Positions 5,554-10,861 of a stretch of DNA of 11,620 bases are shown here, piece after piece. Below the pieces are notes generated by a model, which was not told the origin of the DNA, ran no database searches, and saw only the letters and a program-made list of their open reading frames with translations. This DNA comes from Actinomycetota bacterium (GTDB taxonomy: Bacteria > Actinomycetota > Thermoleophilia > Solirubrobacterales > Solirubrobacteraceae). Each line of letters opens with the position of its first letter. The first letter of the stretch is position 1. Position numbers and translations under genes: made by a program. The DNA lies in assembly GCA_005883255.1 (NCBI GenBank), contig VAXS01000045.1:1-11620 (forward strand). Reading direction: 5' to 3'.

Positions 5554-6063
5554 ATGGAACGCGGCGCCGGCCTCCTGGCGCGGGGACCCTGGGAGCCCGA
5601 CCAGGTGGCCGTGCGCTGGCGCGACGACGAGTTCCAGCCCCGGGCCGCCGCCTCGGCCGCCGCCGACGCCGCGATCGCCCAACTGCGCGAGCGCGGCTCG
5701 CCCAGCCACGACGGCCTGGGCGGCCGCCTCGCCCGCTATCGCGCCGAGCCGGGGCGGCTCGAGCTCGAGCTCCAGCCCGCGCGCTGGTCGCTGCGGCTGG
5801 GCGAGGACGCGGCGGCCAGCCTGTCCGCCCTGTGCGTGGCCCGCGACCCCGACGGCCGCTGGCTGGCCGGTCGGCGGGCGGGCTGGTTGGCCACGTGGGC
5901 CGGGCGCTGGGCGCTGGGCGCCGGCGGCTCCGTCGAGTTGGGCGAGCACCCGGTGGACACGCTGGGCCGCGAGCTGCGGGAGCCGGCCGAGGTCTCCGAG
6001 TGGCCGCTCGAGGCCGACGAGCCGCTGCGGCGGATGGCCTCGCTCCTGGCCGCCGCCGTGTAA
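5554..6063 (+). CDS. NUDIX-like protein with an incomplete Nudix box
   Basis: The product has 169 residues from ATG 5554 to TAA. It opens LLARGPWEPDQVAVRWRDD and contains RERGSPSHDGLGGRLARY, an N-terminal region I associate with actinobacterial NUDIX-like proteins. Strand-like SLSALCVARDPDGRWLAGRR and WAGRWALGAGGSVELGE then lead into a Nudix box: G125, E131 and R139-E140-L141-R142-E143 fit G-x5-E-x7-REUxE. The next residues are P144-A145-E146 instead of E-x-G, so one of the metal-binding glutamates and the turn glycine are missing. Only 23 residues follow, whereas a Nudix fold needs roughly 50 or more after the box. An in-frame internal deletion is the simplest reading, but a divergent non-catalytic family is possible. 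Codon use stays normal across the break, so the frame is still read. Catalysis is doubtful. Confidence 0.65.
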   Translation: MERGAGLLARGPWEPDQVAVRWRDDEFQPRAAASAAADAAIAQLRERGSPSHDGLGGRLARYRAEPGRLELELQPARWSLRLGEDAAASLSALCVARDPDGRWLAGRRAGWLATWAGRWALGAGGSVELGEHPVDTLGRELREPAEVSEWPLEADEPLRRMASLLAAAV

Positions 6064-6125
6064 CCGCCGACACAAATCCAGCCGCCGCGCGCCCGGCCGG
6101 CGGGGCGGACCGGGAGAATCTCGGT

Positions 6126-6416
6126 GTGCGCCTGTTCAAGGTCCTGCGGACCCTGTCGTTCGTCAACTCGGCTGTGTTCACGGGCTTGCTCGTGTGCTGG
6201 CTGGCGCCGGGGCTGGCCACCGAGACCGCGGTCCTGGGCTGGTGTCACGGGTGCATGTGGATCACGCTCTCGGTCCTCTCGATCGTGGCGGTGCGGCTGC
6301 GGGCGATCCCGTTCTGGCTGGCGGTGGTGGTCACCGTCGTGGGGGGCGTGGGACCGTTCGCCGGGAGCGCCGGATTCGTGGTCGAGACCCGCCGCCGGGC
6401 CCGCGCACACGCGTGA
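6126..6416 (+). CDS. DUF3817-type small integral membrane protein
   Basis: The product has 96 residues from GTG 6126, with GGGAGA (6112-6117) eight bases upstream as ribosome site. Three hydrophobic segments are visible: residues about 8-31 (LSFVNSAVFTGLLVCWLAPG), 36-55 (LGWCHGCMWITLSVLSIVAV) and 60-83 (PFWLAVVVTVVGGVGPFAGS), followed by a basic cytoplasmic tail, ETRRRARAHA. A conserved His-Gly at the start of helix 2 and a G-PF-x3-G-F turn at the end of helix 3 match the DUF3817 family of small actinobacterial and firmicute membrane proteins. No function is established for that family. It sits 62 bases after the NUDIX-like gene and 47 bases before the E2-E1 fusion on the same strand; read-through is possible, but the fusion has its own promoter-like box. 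Confidence 0.8.
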   Translation: MRLFKVLRTLSFVNSAVFTGLLVCWLAPGLATETAVLGWCHGCMWITLSVLSIVAVRLRAIPFWLAVVVTVVGGVGPFAGSAGFVVETRRRARAHA

Positions 6417-6463: not shown

Positions 6464-9400
6464 ATGGCGGTGGGAACCACCATCGAGGTCGTGATGCCCC
6501 AGATGGGCGAGTCGGTGACCGAAGGCACCGTGCTCGAATGGCACAAGAGCGAGGGCGATCCGGTGGCCGCGGACGAGACCATCGTCGAGATCTCCACCGA
6601 CAAGGTGGACGCCGAGGTGCCCGCTCCCGCCGCGGGGACGATCGCCAAGATCCACGTGGCCGAGGGCGACACGGTCACGGTGGGCCAGGTCCTGGCCGAG
6701 ATCTCCACCAACGGGGCCGAGGCGGCGACAGCCACTCAGCGGGCGACCGAGGTGCAGTCGGAGGGCGGCGACCCGGTGCCCGGGACCCGCGCGCAGGAGG
6801 AGGCGGCGGGCACCGAGGTGGACCAGGCGGGCGACGGCGCCGGCGGAAACGGCGCCGGGGCCGCGCCGCCGGCGGCGGGCGCCAAGGTGGTCGACATCGT
6901 GACGCCGACCGCCGGCGAGTCGGTCACCGAGGGGACGATCCTGGAGTGGCACAAGCAGCCCGGCGATCCGGTGCGCGCCGACGAGACCGTGGTCGAGATC
7001 TCCACCGACAAGGTGGACGTCGAGCTGCCGGCGCCGGCGAGCGGCACCCTTACCGAGGTCCTGGCCCCGGCGGGGGAGACCGTCACCGTCGGGCAGGTCA
7101 TCGGGCGCATCGCGGTGGACGAGTCCACGGACGCGCCGGCCGCCGAGTCGGAGGCGACCCCCGCGGAGGCGGCCCCGGCGGCGGCCGAGACCGCTCCCGG
7201 CCCGCCTCCCGCCGAGGCTCCCTCCGGCGACGGCGCCAACGCCTCGCCGGTGGCCCGCCGCGTGGCCCAGGCCCACGGCGTCGACCTGGCCGCGCTCGAG
7301 GGCAGCGGCCCCGGCGGCCGCATCTCCAAGGCCGACGTGCTGGCGGCGGCCGAGGGCAACGGTGGCCGCGGCGCCACCGCCAGCCCGCCCGCGCCGGCCA
7401 CCGCGCCCGCCCCCAGCACCGAGCCGCTGCGCGGCGGCGCGGCGACGCTCGCCCGCTACATGGAGGAGAGCCGGTCGATCCCCACGGCCACCTCCTTCCG
7501 CACGATCGCGGTGACGGCGATGGACGCCCGCCGCCGCGAGCTCAAGGCCGCCGGCCAGCGCGTCTCCTTCACCCACCTGATCGCCTACGCGATCGCGCGC
7601 GCCGCCACCGACGACATGCCGGTGATGGCCCATCACTTCCAGGACGTCGACGGCCGGCCGCACCGCGTCGACGATCGCCAGGCGAACCTGGGAGTGGCCG
7701 TCGACGTGGAGAAGAAGGACGGCAGCCGCACGCTCATGGTCCCGGTCATCCGCGACGCCGGGCGCACGCAGTTCGTGGACTTCGTGGCCGCCTTCGACGA
7801 CCTGATTTCCCGCGCGCGCGAGAACCGGCTGACGGCTGATGATCTAGTCGGTTCTAACGTAGTCCTTACCAACCCGGGCGGGATCGGCACCCTCGCCTCC
7901 GTGCCTCGGCTGATGCCCGGCCAGGGGACGATCGTCGCCACCGGCGCGATCGGCTACCCCAAGGGGCTGGAGGGCGTGGGCCAGATGATCGGGGCCGAGA
8001 AGGTCATGACGATGACCTCGACCTACGACCACCGGATCATCCAGGGCGCCGAGTCGGGCCGGTTCCTGGCGGTGGTCGAGGGCTACCTGCAGGGCGAGCA
8101 CGGCTTCTACGAGGACGTCTTCGCCTCGCTGGGCGTGAAGCTGGGCCCGGCGCCGTCGGTCCCGGCCCCGGCCGCCGCGGCGGCGGCCGCGCGCGAGCGG
8201 GTGGCCGAGCCGGTCGCGGCGCCGGACGAGGAGATGATGCAGGCGGTCCAGGCCGCCATGTCGCTGATCAAGGCCCACCGCACCCACGGGCACCTGGCCG
8301 CGCAGCTGGACCCGCTGGGGACGGATCCCACGGGCGACCCGGCGCTGGATCCCGAGCCGCTGGGGCTGACTCCGGAGCTGATGGCGCGGATCCCCGCGTC
8401 GATCCTGCGCATGTACGTGCCGGGCGCCACGCTGGCCGACGCCCTGCCGCACCTGCGCGAGACCTACCGCGGCCCGATCGCCTACGAGATCGAGCACATC
8501 TCCTCCCACCAGCAGCGGGTGTGGCTGCGGGAGAAGATCGAGTCGGGCGCCTTCCGCGCGCCGCTGACGTCGGAGGAGAAGCGGGCGCTGCTCCAGCGGC
8601 TGACCGAGGTCGACGCGCTCGAGCGCTTCATGCACAAGGCCTACCTGGGCCAGAAGCAGTTCTCGATCGAGGGCCTGGACATGACCGTGCCCATGCTGGA
8701 CGAGCTCATCCAGCTGGCGGCGGGCCGGGGCGGGCGCGAAGTGGTGATCGGCATGGCCCACCGCGGGCGGCTCAACGTCCTGGCCCACAACCTCGGGCGA
8801 CCGTACGACACGATCTTCGCCGAGTTCGAGGGCGCCTCCACCCTGGAGGCGGTGACCACGCTGCCCCAGGGCGGCACCGGCGACGTCAAGTACCACCACG
8901 GGGCCGAGGGGTCCTACCAGCTGCCCGACGGCGAGTCGATCAAGGTCGTGCTGGAGTCGAACCCCAGCCACCTGGAGTACGTGGACCCGGTGGTGACCGG
9001 CGCCGCCCGCGCCGCCCAGACCGTGCGCCAGGGCCCGCACGCCCACCGCGATCCCGACGCCGCGATCCCGATCGTGCTGCACGGCGACGCCGCCCTCCCG
9101 GCCCAGGGCGTGGTGGCGGAGACCTTCAACCTCCAGGCGCTGGACGGCTACTCGGTGGGCGGCAGCGTCCACCTGATCCAGAACAACCAGGTGGGCTTCA
9201 CCACCTTCCCGCACGAGGGACGCTCCACGCAGTGGGCCTCGGACCTGGCCAAGGGCTTCGACGTCCCGATCATCCACGTCAACGCCGACGACGTGGAGGC
9301 CTGCATCTCCGCCGCGCGGCTGGCCTTCGCCTTCCGCCAGGAGTTTGGGCACGACGTGGTCATCGACCTGATCGGCTACCGCCGCTATGGCCACAACGAA

Positions 9401-10861
9401 GCCGACGAGCCCGCCTACACGCAGCCCGCGATGTACGGCGAGATCCGCGGCCACCCCCGCGTGCGCGAGCTGTTCGCCAAGCAGCTGGTCGAGGAGGGCG
9501 TGATCGGCCAGGAGGACGTCGACGCTCAGGAGGAGGAGGTGTGGGGACTCCTCACCGACCTGCACCAGCAGCTCAAGCGGACCATCGAGGCGTCTGAGCA
9601 CGTCGAGCACACCACCGGCCAGTACGAGCTCGACCGCTCCCCCAGCCCGGAGGTCAAGACCGCGGTGTCGGTCGAGCGGCTGCGGTCCCTCAACCAGGAG
9701 CTGCTGGCGGTCCCCGACGGCTTCACCATCCACCCCAAGCTGCTGCGCCAGCTCGAGCGCCGGCGCGAGACGCTGGGCGCCGAGGGCGGGATCGACTGGG
9801 CCCAGGCGGAGGCGCTGGCCTTCGCCTCGCTGCTCACCGAGGGCACGCCGATCCGGTTGACCGGACAGGACACCGAGCGCGGGACGTTCTCCCAGCGCCA
9901 CCTGGTCCTGCACGACCACGAGACCGGGCAGCGCTTCTCGCCGATCGGGAACCTGCCGGGCGCGCTGGCGCCGATGGAGCTGCACAACTCGCCCCTGAGC
10001 GAGGTGGCCACGCTGGGCTTCGAGTACGGCTACTCGCAGGAGGCGCCCGAGACGCTGGTCCTGTGGGAGGCCCAGTTCGGCGACTTCGTCAACGCCGCCC
10101 AGGTGATCATCGACCAGTTCATCGTGTCCGCGCTGGCGAAGTGGGGGCAGAGCTCGCGGATCACGCTGCTGCTGCCGCACGGATACGAGGGCTCCGGTCC
10201 CGAGCACTCCTCGGCGCGGCTGGAGCGGTTCCTGGCGCTGGCGGCCGAGGGCAACATCAGGGTGGCCAATTTGACGACGCCCGCCCAGTACTTCCACCTG
10301 CTGCGCCGCCAGGCGCGCATCGCCAAGCAGCGTCCGCTGATCGTCATGACGCCCAAGTCCCTGCTGCGCCTGCCGCAGGCCACGAACCGCATCGAGCACC
10401 TGGCGGAGTCGCGCTTCTTCCCGGTGCTGGGGGAGCCGCGGGTTGACGTGGAGAAGGTCACCCGGCTCATCCTGTGCACCGGCAAGATCTACTACGACCT
10501 GGTGGGGCATCAGGCCCGGGCCGGGGAGGACCGGCTGGCGGTGGGACGGGTCGAGCTGCTGTACCCGTTCCCGCAGGCGCAGATCCTGGAGCTGATCGGG
10601 ATGTACCCGAACCTCGAGGAGGTCGTGTGGGTGCAGGAGGAGCCGCGCAACATGGGCGCCCGCGCCTTCATGTCGCCCCGGCTGCTGCAGATCCTGCCCG
10701 AGGGGCTGCGCTTCGGCTACATCGGCCGTCCGGAGCGCGCCAGCCCCGGCGAGGGCTACCCGGCCGCCCACATCGGGGAGCAGAGCCGGATCATCTCCAC
10801 CGCGCTCAACCTCTCGATCCCGGTCTCTATGTACCCGTCGAAGACGCCGGGTCAGCGCTGA
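6464..10861 (+). CDS. kgd: Lipoyl-bearing 2-oxoglutarate dehydrogenase E2-E1 fusion (KGD/OdhA family)
   Basis: The product has 1465 residues. Two lipoyl domains (about 6-82 and 142-217) carry modifiable K47 and K183 in ISTDKVD. A peripheral-subunit-binding domain (259-296, SPVARRVAQAHGVDLAAL) and an Ala/Pro linker precede the E2 core (about 322-570). There DHRIIQGAESG gives catalytic H523, with Q527 where ordinary E2 proteins have Asp, as in mycobacterial KGD. The E1 part runs from about 590 to the end: HRTHGHLAAQLDPLG, HRGRLNVLAHN (H766), the thiamine-binding GDAALPAQG (G874-D875) with NNQVGFTT (N907), and HGYEGSGPEHSS (H1239). It decarboxylates 2-oxoglutarate and passes succinyl to CoA in the TCA cycle; an E3 is still needed. 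KGD/OdhA of Mycobacterium and Corynebacterium has about 1220 residues and lacks the lipoyl and binding domains. Start chosen at ATG 6464, after TAGACT, just before the lipoyl domain; the frame is open further upstream but overlaps the membrane-protein gene. Confidence 0.95.
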   Translation: MAVGTTIEVVMPQMGESVTEGTVLEWHKSEGDPVAADETIVEISTDKVDAEVPAPAAGTIAKIHVAEGDTVTVGQVLAEISTNGAEAATATQRATEVQSEGGDPVPGTRAQEEAAGTEVDQAGDGAGGNGAGAAPPAAGAKVVDIVTPTAGESVTEGTILEWHKQPGDPVRADETVVEISTDKVDVELPAPASGTLTEVLAPAGETVTVGQVIGRIAVDESTDAPAAESEATPAEAAPAAAETAPGPPPAEAPSGDGANASPVARRVAQAHGVDLAALEGSGPGGRISKADVLAAAEGNGGRGATASPPAPATAPAPSTEPLRGGAATLARYMEESRSIPTATSFRTIAVTAMDARRRELKAAGQRVSFTHLIAYAIARAATDDMPVMAHHFQDVDGRPHRVDDRQANLGVAVDVEKKDGSRTLMVPVIRDAGRTQFVDFVAAFDDLISRARENRLTADDLVGSNVVLTNPGGIGTLASVPRLMPGQGTIVATGAIGYPKGLEGVGQMIGAEKVMTMTSTYDHRIIQGAESGRFLAVVEGYLQGEHGFYEDVFASLGVKLGPAPSVPAPAAAAAAARERVAEPVAAPDEEMMQAVQAAMSLIKAHRTHGHLAAQLDPLGTDPTGDPALDPEPLGLTPELMARIPASILRMYVPGATLADALPHLRETYRGPIAYEIEHISSHQQRVWLREKIESGAFRAPLTSEEKRALLQRLTEVDALERFMHKAYLGQKQFSIEGLDMTVPMLDELIQLAAGRGGREVVIGMAHRGRLNVLAHNLGRPYDTIFAEFEGASTLEAVTTLPQGGTGDVKYHHGAEGSYQLPDGESIKVVLESNPSHLEYVDPVVTGAARAAQTVRQGPHAHRDPDAAIPIVLHGDAALPAQGVVAETFNLQALDGYSVGGSVHLIQNNQVGFTTFPHEGRSTQWASDLAKGFDVPIIHVNADDVEACISAARLAFAFRQEFGHDVVIDLIGYRRYGHNEADEPAYTQPAMYGEIRGHPRVRELFAKQLVEEGVIGQEDVDAQEEEVWGLLTDLHQQLKRTIEASEHVEHTTGQYELDRSPSPEVKTAVSVERLRSLNQELLAVPDGFTIHPKLLRQLERRRETLGAEGGIDWAQAEALAFASLLTEGTPIRLTGQDTERGTFSQRHLVLHDHETGQRFSPIGNLPGALAPMELHNSPLSEVATLGFEYGYSQEAPETLVLWEAQFGDFVNAAQVIIDQFIVSALAKWGQSSRITLLLPHGYEGSGPEHSSARLERFLALAAEGNIRVANLTTPAQYFHLLRRQARIAKQRPLIVMTPKSLLRLPQATNRIEHLAESRFFPVLGEPRVDVEKVTRLILCTGKIYYDLVGHQARAGEDRLAVGRVELLYPFPQAQILELIGMYPNLEEVVWVQEEPRNMGARAFMSPRLLQILPEGLRFGYIGRPERASPGEGYPAAHIGEQSRIISTALNLSIPVSMYPSKTPGQR
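6584..7018 (+). repeat. 27-bp exact direct repeat at the two lipoyl-lysine sites
   Basis: Bases 6584-6610 and 6992-7018 are identical over 27 bases and lie 408 bases (136 codons) apart in frame. Each encodes VEISTDKVD around the lipoylated Lys. Flanking codons are similar but not identical, as expected from a tandem lipoyl-domain duplication with later drift or local gene conversion. Recombination between copies would delete exactly one lipoyl domain in frame. Confidence 0.85.

Follow-up and report, generated by a model that had tools for sequence, protein, structure and literature searches.

A lipoyl-bearing E2o-E1o fusion of Thermoleophilia as a probable single-chain 2-oxoglutarate dehydrogenase with an arm of its own

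The actinobacterial enzymes OdhA and KGD carry an E2o core and an E1o on one chain and, according to PMC10415282 and PMC10581250, rely on lipoyl groups provided in trans. The stretch of DNA analysed here (11,620 nucleotides from a member of the Solirubrobacteraceae; hereafter the window) encodes a fusion of this kind that bears lipoyl domains of its own. This raises the question of whether such an enzyme could work with an arm in cis, and how that arm came to stand in front of a fused E2o-E1o. A preliminary description of the window had already drawn the contrast with OdhA and KGD, and the published accounts agree with it.

The gene (6464-10861, plus strand) is a single open frame of 1465 residues and a stop codon, and its translation and Pfam matches confirmed the order lipoyl-lipoyl-PSBD-E2o core-E1o given in the preliminary description. 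The first lipoyl domain (6485-6703; PF00364, 9.7e-24) bears the lysine K47 (6602-6604) and the second (6893-7111; PF00364, 5.6e-22) the lysine K183 (7010-7012), both at the positions originally named and each within TDKVD; the two Biotin_lipoyl matches together reach a whole-protein E-value of 1.2e-42. They are followed by a peripheral subunit-binding (E3-binding) domain, PSBD (7241-7342, residues 260-293; PF02817, 3.3e-14), and by the E2o catalytic core (7415-8092; PF00198, 2-oxoacid_dh at residues 318-543, 2.5e-43), where the alignment places the H523/Q527 dyad, Y521 and S344, with F548 directly after the core. The E1o (2-oxoglutarate decarboxylase) part covers 8231-10813, residues ~590-1450 (PF00676, PF02779 and PF16870; E1_dh at 739-1035, Transket_pyr at 1110-1302, OxoGdeHyase_C at 1311-1448). 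In NCBIfam the product falls under the KGD multifunctional enzyme, PRK12270/NF008907, with a score of 1521.6 bits (cut-off 878), and the E1o (SucA) families TIGR00239 (996 bits, cut-off 770) and NF006914 (1100.8 bits, cut-off 764) are also exceeded. By sequence, KGD of M. smegmatis and OdhA of C. glutamicum are the nearest solved structures; their matches begin only at residues 295-334 of the encoded protein, i.e., without the lipoyl/PSBD part. Upstream of the ATG at 6464 the frame stays open back to a GTG at 6194, and no strong ribosome-binding site was seen by eye before this ATG; the start at 6464 is therefore putative. A chance frame or a misassembly is ruled out, because named strains of Solirubrobacter and Conexibacter, and many separate MAGs, show this domain order as well. 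The window gave no matches in Rfam and tRNA scans.

Of 39 long loci, 33 have two genes upstream of the fusion, a NUDIX-domain gene (5554-6063, plus strand) and, directly before the fusion, a small ORF with a putative start and no family (6120-6416, plus strand); the six long loci without them belong to Gemmatimonadota (three) and Alicyclobacillus (three). At 194-1558 on the minus strand the window also holds a gene for a flavoprotein resembling dihydrolipoamide dehydrogenase. It was rejected as the partner E3, being not conserved beside the fusion and scoring 294 bits against the Lpd cut-off of 408.8.

The lipoyl-arm architecture is normal for its bacterial group and not a one-off. In a species-level scan (one genome per species), 62 of the best 80 of 174 relatives carried the window-type E2 and E1 in one frame, and both lipoyl domain and PSBD were present in 53 of these 62; in the nine others the lipoyl domain is missing where the contig starts (eight) or the frame is broken (L048). 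The remaining 18 comprised six Gemmatimonadota fusions without a lipoyl domain (LD-less), three Gemmatimonadota E1s without E2, three Alicyclobacillus loci with separate genes, five E1-only frames and one broken frame. The latter lies on the Svornostia abyssi chromosome (L059, 5809-10271), where the fusion shifts frame between E2 and E1, either because the gene is truly split there or because of an error in the sequencing. Named carriers are Candidatus Solirubrobacter pratensis, S. soli, S. deserti, S. phytolaccae and Conexibacter sp. S30A1; two loci titled as a Bifidobacterium breve MAG (L014, L028) hold fusions of Solirubrobacterales type and are probably mislabelled. A protein search gave the same picture: a lipoyl domain was found in 112 of the best 120 of 8000 scored proteins, and the other eight start within or past the PSBD.

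The class in question is Thermoleophilia by the NCBI placement of Solirubrobacter, from which the class of the other genomes was inferred. A match was obtained in 97 of 150 searched genomes of this class, and in 63 of the 97 one match runs from E2 to the end of E1; all 63 were read (59 as L275-L333, four as L144-L147). The PSBD is present in 63/63 and one or two lipoyl domains in 61/63, while the two exceptions (L281, L296) start at a contig edge five residues ahead of the PSBD. One further fusion, spread over two contigs (G322), was left out of the 63, and the other 33 genomes match over E1 only (31 in the families f44 and f45, two fragments in f3). The fused form thus occupies four of the six class family codes that have the gene (f1, f2, f41, f3), and E1 is separate in f44 and f45. 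A single complete lipoyl domain was found in 9 of the 59 frames L275-L333; since one-lipoyl versions occur, the second domain is dispensable. Outside the class, a phylum survey of 100 genomes yielded 37 fused rows (one, G023, left out), and neither lipoyl domain nor PSBD was found in any of the 36 fusions read. Fusions of the OdhA/KGD type, LD-less, are present in further actinobacterial families and also, against expectation, in Gemmatimonadota. The Gemmatimonadota loci (L062, L063, L064, L067, L068, L072, L211-L214, L217-L219) have E1 halves that are nearest to those of the Thermoleophilia fusions. In the sets examined, which overlap such that some genomes appear in more than one, the lipoyl version was found only in the class and in same-type loci, a few of them under vague or wrong organism titles, among the best 80 of 174 relatives. 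The preliminary description had left it uncertain whether this architecture was already described as standard in its clade. The genes are indeed annotated in databases, but no description of a lipoyl-bearing E2-E1 fusion was found in the open-access literature, as judged by titles and abstract openings.

The difference between the two kinds of fusion turned out not to be a simple presence or absence of lipoyl domains. Two sets were compared, assembled on the lipoyl domain and on the joint presence of E2 and E1 in a frame, without regard to the hairpin. PF16078 (the E1o docking hairpin) matched none of the 32 lipoyl fusions, the window's own included, and 37 of the 38 LD-less ones; PF00364 and PF02817 were found in 32/32 and 0/38, respectively. 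A hairpin profile built for this analysis, with the same LD-less sequences as part of its training set, recovered the hairpin in 47 of 49 LD-less frames, the two exceptions being cut by a contig end (L131) or apparently degenerate (L214). The same profile found no match in 74 window-type frames (65 with a lipoyl domain; six are pieces fetched a second time from loci that were already in the count) and none among the best 120 of 8000 scored proteins. At the N-terminus of the KGD-type and Gemmatimonadota fusions stands the same short segment that starts separate E1o proteins, followed by the E2 core and then by the E1 body. The hairpin is native to separate E1o, being present in E. coli and in family f44 (5/5 read; 0/2 in f45). 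For human E1o, a review (PMC8146983) puts this segment forward as a dual-subunit-binding domain that would bind E2o and E3, and PMC10415282 describes it in KGD/OdhA as a mobile helical hairpin thought to touch other components. The lipoyl/PSBD arm therefore occupies the place held by the docking hairpin in relatives: one N-terminal module has been swapped for another.

Separate trees were built for the E2 core and for E1. In a careful E2-core tree, the E2s of the KGD, Gemmatimonadota and Thermoleophilia fusions form one clan (100/100, branch 2.51), apart from SucB, AceF-like and other E2s, and the window core falls outside the SucB clan. The E2 trees were built on chosen subsets, and in a second one L232 and L234 were dropped for their long branches. 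The fusion E2s share the motifs PRLMxGQG and STYDHRxIQGAESG and a Phe ahead of the E1 linker; among all loci examined, TYDHRx[IV]QG occurs outside a fused frame only at the ends of contigs or fetched pieces or in broken frames. Residues that PMC10415282 assigns to succinyl transfer and recognition in OdhA gave the mapping of H523, Q527, Y521 and S344; in the alignment, Y521, H523, Q527 and F548 are kept in 32/32 lipoyl fusions and S344 in 31/32. Against the window core, the Gemmatimonadota LD-less fusions score 195-238 bits vs. 144-219 for the KGD type. No standalone E2 of the fusion type was seen among the E2s read from PF00198 match lists. A search for standalone relatives with the N-terminal half gave a best 120 matches all of the window type, many of them partial, and no separate family emerged.

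The E1 halves behaved differently. In a careful mixture-model tree, the E1s of the Thermoleophilia and Gemmatimonadota fusions fall together with unfused E1s from Gemmatimonadota, Bacillota and the actinobacterial family f16 (100/100, branch 0.65), and the KGD E1s lie outside this group. A clan of all fusion E1s was rejected in quick trees on two data sets, one with a single proteobacterial outgroup (AU 0.002) and one with named Proteobacteria and Bacillota (AU 5.65e-66); the E1 trees were thinned by hand, and a divergent E1-only Streptomyces plasmid copy (L255) was removed before the second test. The E1s of the Solirubrobacterales set are on average 44.6% identical to those of KGD, 48.5-53.0% to the separate E1s of Bacillota, f16 and Gemmatimonadota, and 42.2% to those of Proteobacteria; the nearest fused E1s outside the class are those of the Gemmatimonadota LD-less fusions (mean 60.0%). 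The separate E1s of f44 and f45 nest within the Thermoleophilia E1 clade (99/95). In the seven genomes concerned (L334-L340), no E2 of SucB or fusion type was seen (ten E2s judged by tree, the rest by tails).

Judged from these trees, the fusion E2 cores are one family and the E1 halves are not. The conflict could be a long-branch artefact, such that both halves of all fusions share one origin; the long stem and the STYDHRxIQGAESG-like motifs common to the E2 cores would fit this, as would the fairly divergent KGD E1s. We regard it as improbable, since the E1 group holds at 100/100 under the mixture model, the all-fusion clan fails in both data sets, and the identity to KGD is lower than that to separate E1s of Bacillota, f16 and Gemmatimonadota. 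The simplest reading would be that one E2 core was placed in different E1o backgrounds through recombination.

It is harder to say where the arm came from. The preliminary description had offered two possibilities, an ancestral state before lipoyl loss or a later regain; the E2 core is indeed of the same family as in OdhA, but the enzyme is not just OdhA with or without lipoyl domains, as the arm stands in the place of the hairpin and E1 belongs to a different E1o lineage. We lean to regain, rating it as somewhat the better bet, and this only because hairpin-E2-E1 is common to both other groups. The fusion would have started LD-less, and the Thermoleophilia line would have exchanged the hairpin for the lipoyl/PSBD arm of another E2. 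The arrangement found on both sides, in KGD-type and Gemmatimonadota fusions, and the native occurrence of the hairpin in separate E1o (E. coli, f44) speak for this course, and a first tree of 83 lipoyl domains pointed the same way, joining the fusion domains to Solirubrobacterales AceF-like E2s (97/89), then to Gemmatimonadota AceF-like E2s and AceF of KGD genomes, and not to SucB. When the f44 E2s were added, however, resolution was lost and a group of fusion and SucB lipoyl domains was not rejected (p 0.185); a firm AceF source, which had held in the first tree, was given up. The lipoyl trees were likewise built on chosen subsets. Moreover, the fusion PSBDs score closest to branched-chain-type E2s and not to AceF, and the very long E2-core stem (2.5) makes the root unsure. 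The ancestral course, that an LD-PSBD-E2 gene was fused end to end with E1 and that the arm was later lost in KGD and Gemmatimonadota, which regained the hairpin by recombination with sucA, seems to us a weaker candidate, worth about one chance in three. It agrees with the domain order, which matches an ordinary E2 with E1 behind it, and with the recombination with sucA that the E1/E2 conflict suggests anyway, but it needs arm loss and hairpin return at the same place in two groups. Taken together, the hairpin distribution mildly favours regain of the arm, and the lipoyl-domain trees may be read either way.

The companion enzymes bear on whether the arm is used. According to PMC10581250, every OdhA homologue is linked to an E2p in which three inserted residues block the assembly of the core. 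Five of 10 genomes examined from the window's class gave an AceE match above cut-off, and in 5/5 of them the AceE-adjacent E2 ends in a tail like LSDLRRVLL (read by eye) that lacks the OdhA-associated Phe. The AceF-type E2s of five KGD-type genomes, identified by tree and not by AceE adjacency, have Phe-containing tails by eye, e.g., GAFEADLGL; naming such tails 'PCI' follows a comparison by eye with PMC10415282, not with a C. glutamicum AceF sequence. If this is right, the lipoyl fusion would be an exception to the link between OdhA and the E2p tail, which fits a fusion that no longer needs AceF. The same AceE-adjacent E2s (L085, L088, L089, L229, L231) carry a lipoyl domain that diverges strongly, on a branch of 2.44 in the first lipoyl tree. 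A second, AceF-like E2 of Solirubrobacter has tails such as KLEAWPIN, and Gemmatimonadota AceF-like E2s have QEFPEGA-like tails. In the window's own genome, which is incomplete, no other E2 and no AceE were seen.

We consider it likely that the fusion is a 2-oxoglutarate dehydrogenase with E1o, lipoyl carrier and E2o on one chain, which would use its own arm for the E1 and E2 steps and need only E3. We base this on the domain order, the conserved catalytic and lipoyl residues, the mutual exclusivity of hairpin and arm, and the AceE-linked E2 tails without the OdhA-associated Phe. E1o would carry out the ThDP-dependent decarboxylation of 2-oxoglutarate and load succinyl onto a lipoyl-lysine of the same chain (K47 or K183); the arm would swing to the trimeric E2o core, where succinyl would be handed to CoA at H523/Q527, and the dihydrolipoyl group would be reoxidised by E3 held by the PSBD. 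Lipoylation, use of the chain's own arm, E3 binding by the PSBD and trimeric/hexameric assembly are all predictions of this scheme. Against own-arm use, additional lipoyl-bearing E2s in Solirubrobacter and related genomes leave room for lending in trans, and for the view that the lipoyl domains of the fusion are vestigial or work for a different complex, activity still depending on other E2s as in OdhA. Such a state of affairs appears unlikely: every lipoyl domain found in the 32-member set keeps the lysine motif TDKV (once TDKI), among the frames read, every window-type one without a lipoyl domain is cut by a contig start or, in L048, frame-broken, the docking hairpin is missing, and the AceE-linked E2s lack the Phe tail. 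An AlphaFold model of residues 305-1465 (pLDDT 71.6, pTM 0.58) found OdhA and KGD as its best PDB matches and has a short helix at ~503-509, where OdhA has a helix instead of the usual hairpin, at low confidence (pLDDT 61-65 by block). The relative placing of the domains in OdhA was not reproduced (rmsd ~29), and with confidence this low the model was set aside as support for an OdhA-like packing.

In a broader view, the fusion E2o core might be a cassette that met unrelated E1o genes more than once, behind either a hairpin (lipoyl domain in trans) or a lipoyl/PSBD arm (lipoyl domain in cis), with Thermoleophilia holding the cis version, a single-chain E1-lipoyl-E2 enzyme that needs only E3 and is freed from AceF and its tail change; we give this an even chance. 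The docking hairpin of E1o and the lipoyl/PSBD arm are indicated as alternative solutions, and E2-E1 fusions as extending beyond Actinomycetota. The literature on OdhA asks why the two-in-one enzyme occurs together with a reduced core of AceF, and how two enzymes can share a single set of lipoyl arms. Both questions would gain a direct control in a natural enzyme that brings its own arm and is present in named strains of Solirubrobacter and Conexibacter, where the AceE-linked E2 is free of the tail change.

Among known systems, the closest are the actinobacterial OdhA/KGD enzymes (PDB 8p5r, 8p5t; 2xt6). Just as in these, an E2o core of the same family precedes E1o on one chain, and the H/Q dyad, the Tyr, the Ser and the C-terminal Phe of the core are conserved. 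OdhA, however, has the E1o hairpin and neither lipoyl domain nor PSBD, whereas the window fusion has two lipoyl domains and a PSBD and lacks PF16078; the E1 of OdhA belongs to another E1o lineage, OdhA borrows the lipoyl domains of AceF according to the published work, and the Phe-containing C-terminal insertion of its companion E2p is present in 0/5 AceE-adjacent E2s of the window's relatives. A further mark of OdhA/KGD is a homohexamer under regulation by GarA/OdhI and acetyl-CoA. The canonical SucA and SucB of E. coli and Bacillus share the set of reactions, the SucB order of lipoyl domain, PSBD and E2, and an E1 close to that of the window in the SucA of Bacillota and Gemmatimonadota, but they are encoded by two genes, their E2 core, which has DHRxxDG and a canonical tail, belongs to a different clan, and SucA keeps the hairpin. 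The separate E1o proteins of f44 and f45 resemble the fusion in that their E1 falls in the same clade (99/95), and differ in having no E2 fused to them and in the hairpin, present in f44 and not seen in f45. Finally, the Gemmatimonadota LD-less fusions (L062, L211 and others) resemble the window in both halves, by the E1 identity and the E2 scores given above, and differ in carrying the hairpin in place of the lipoyl/PSBD arm.
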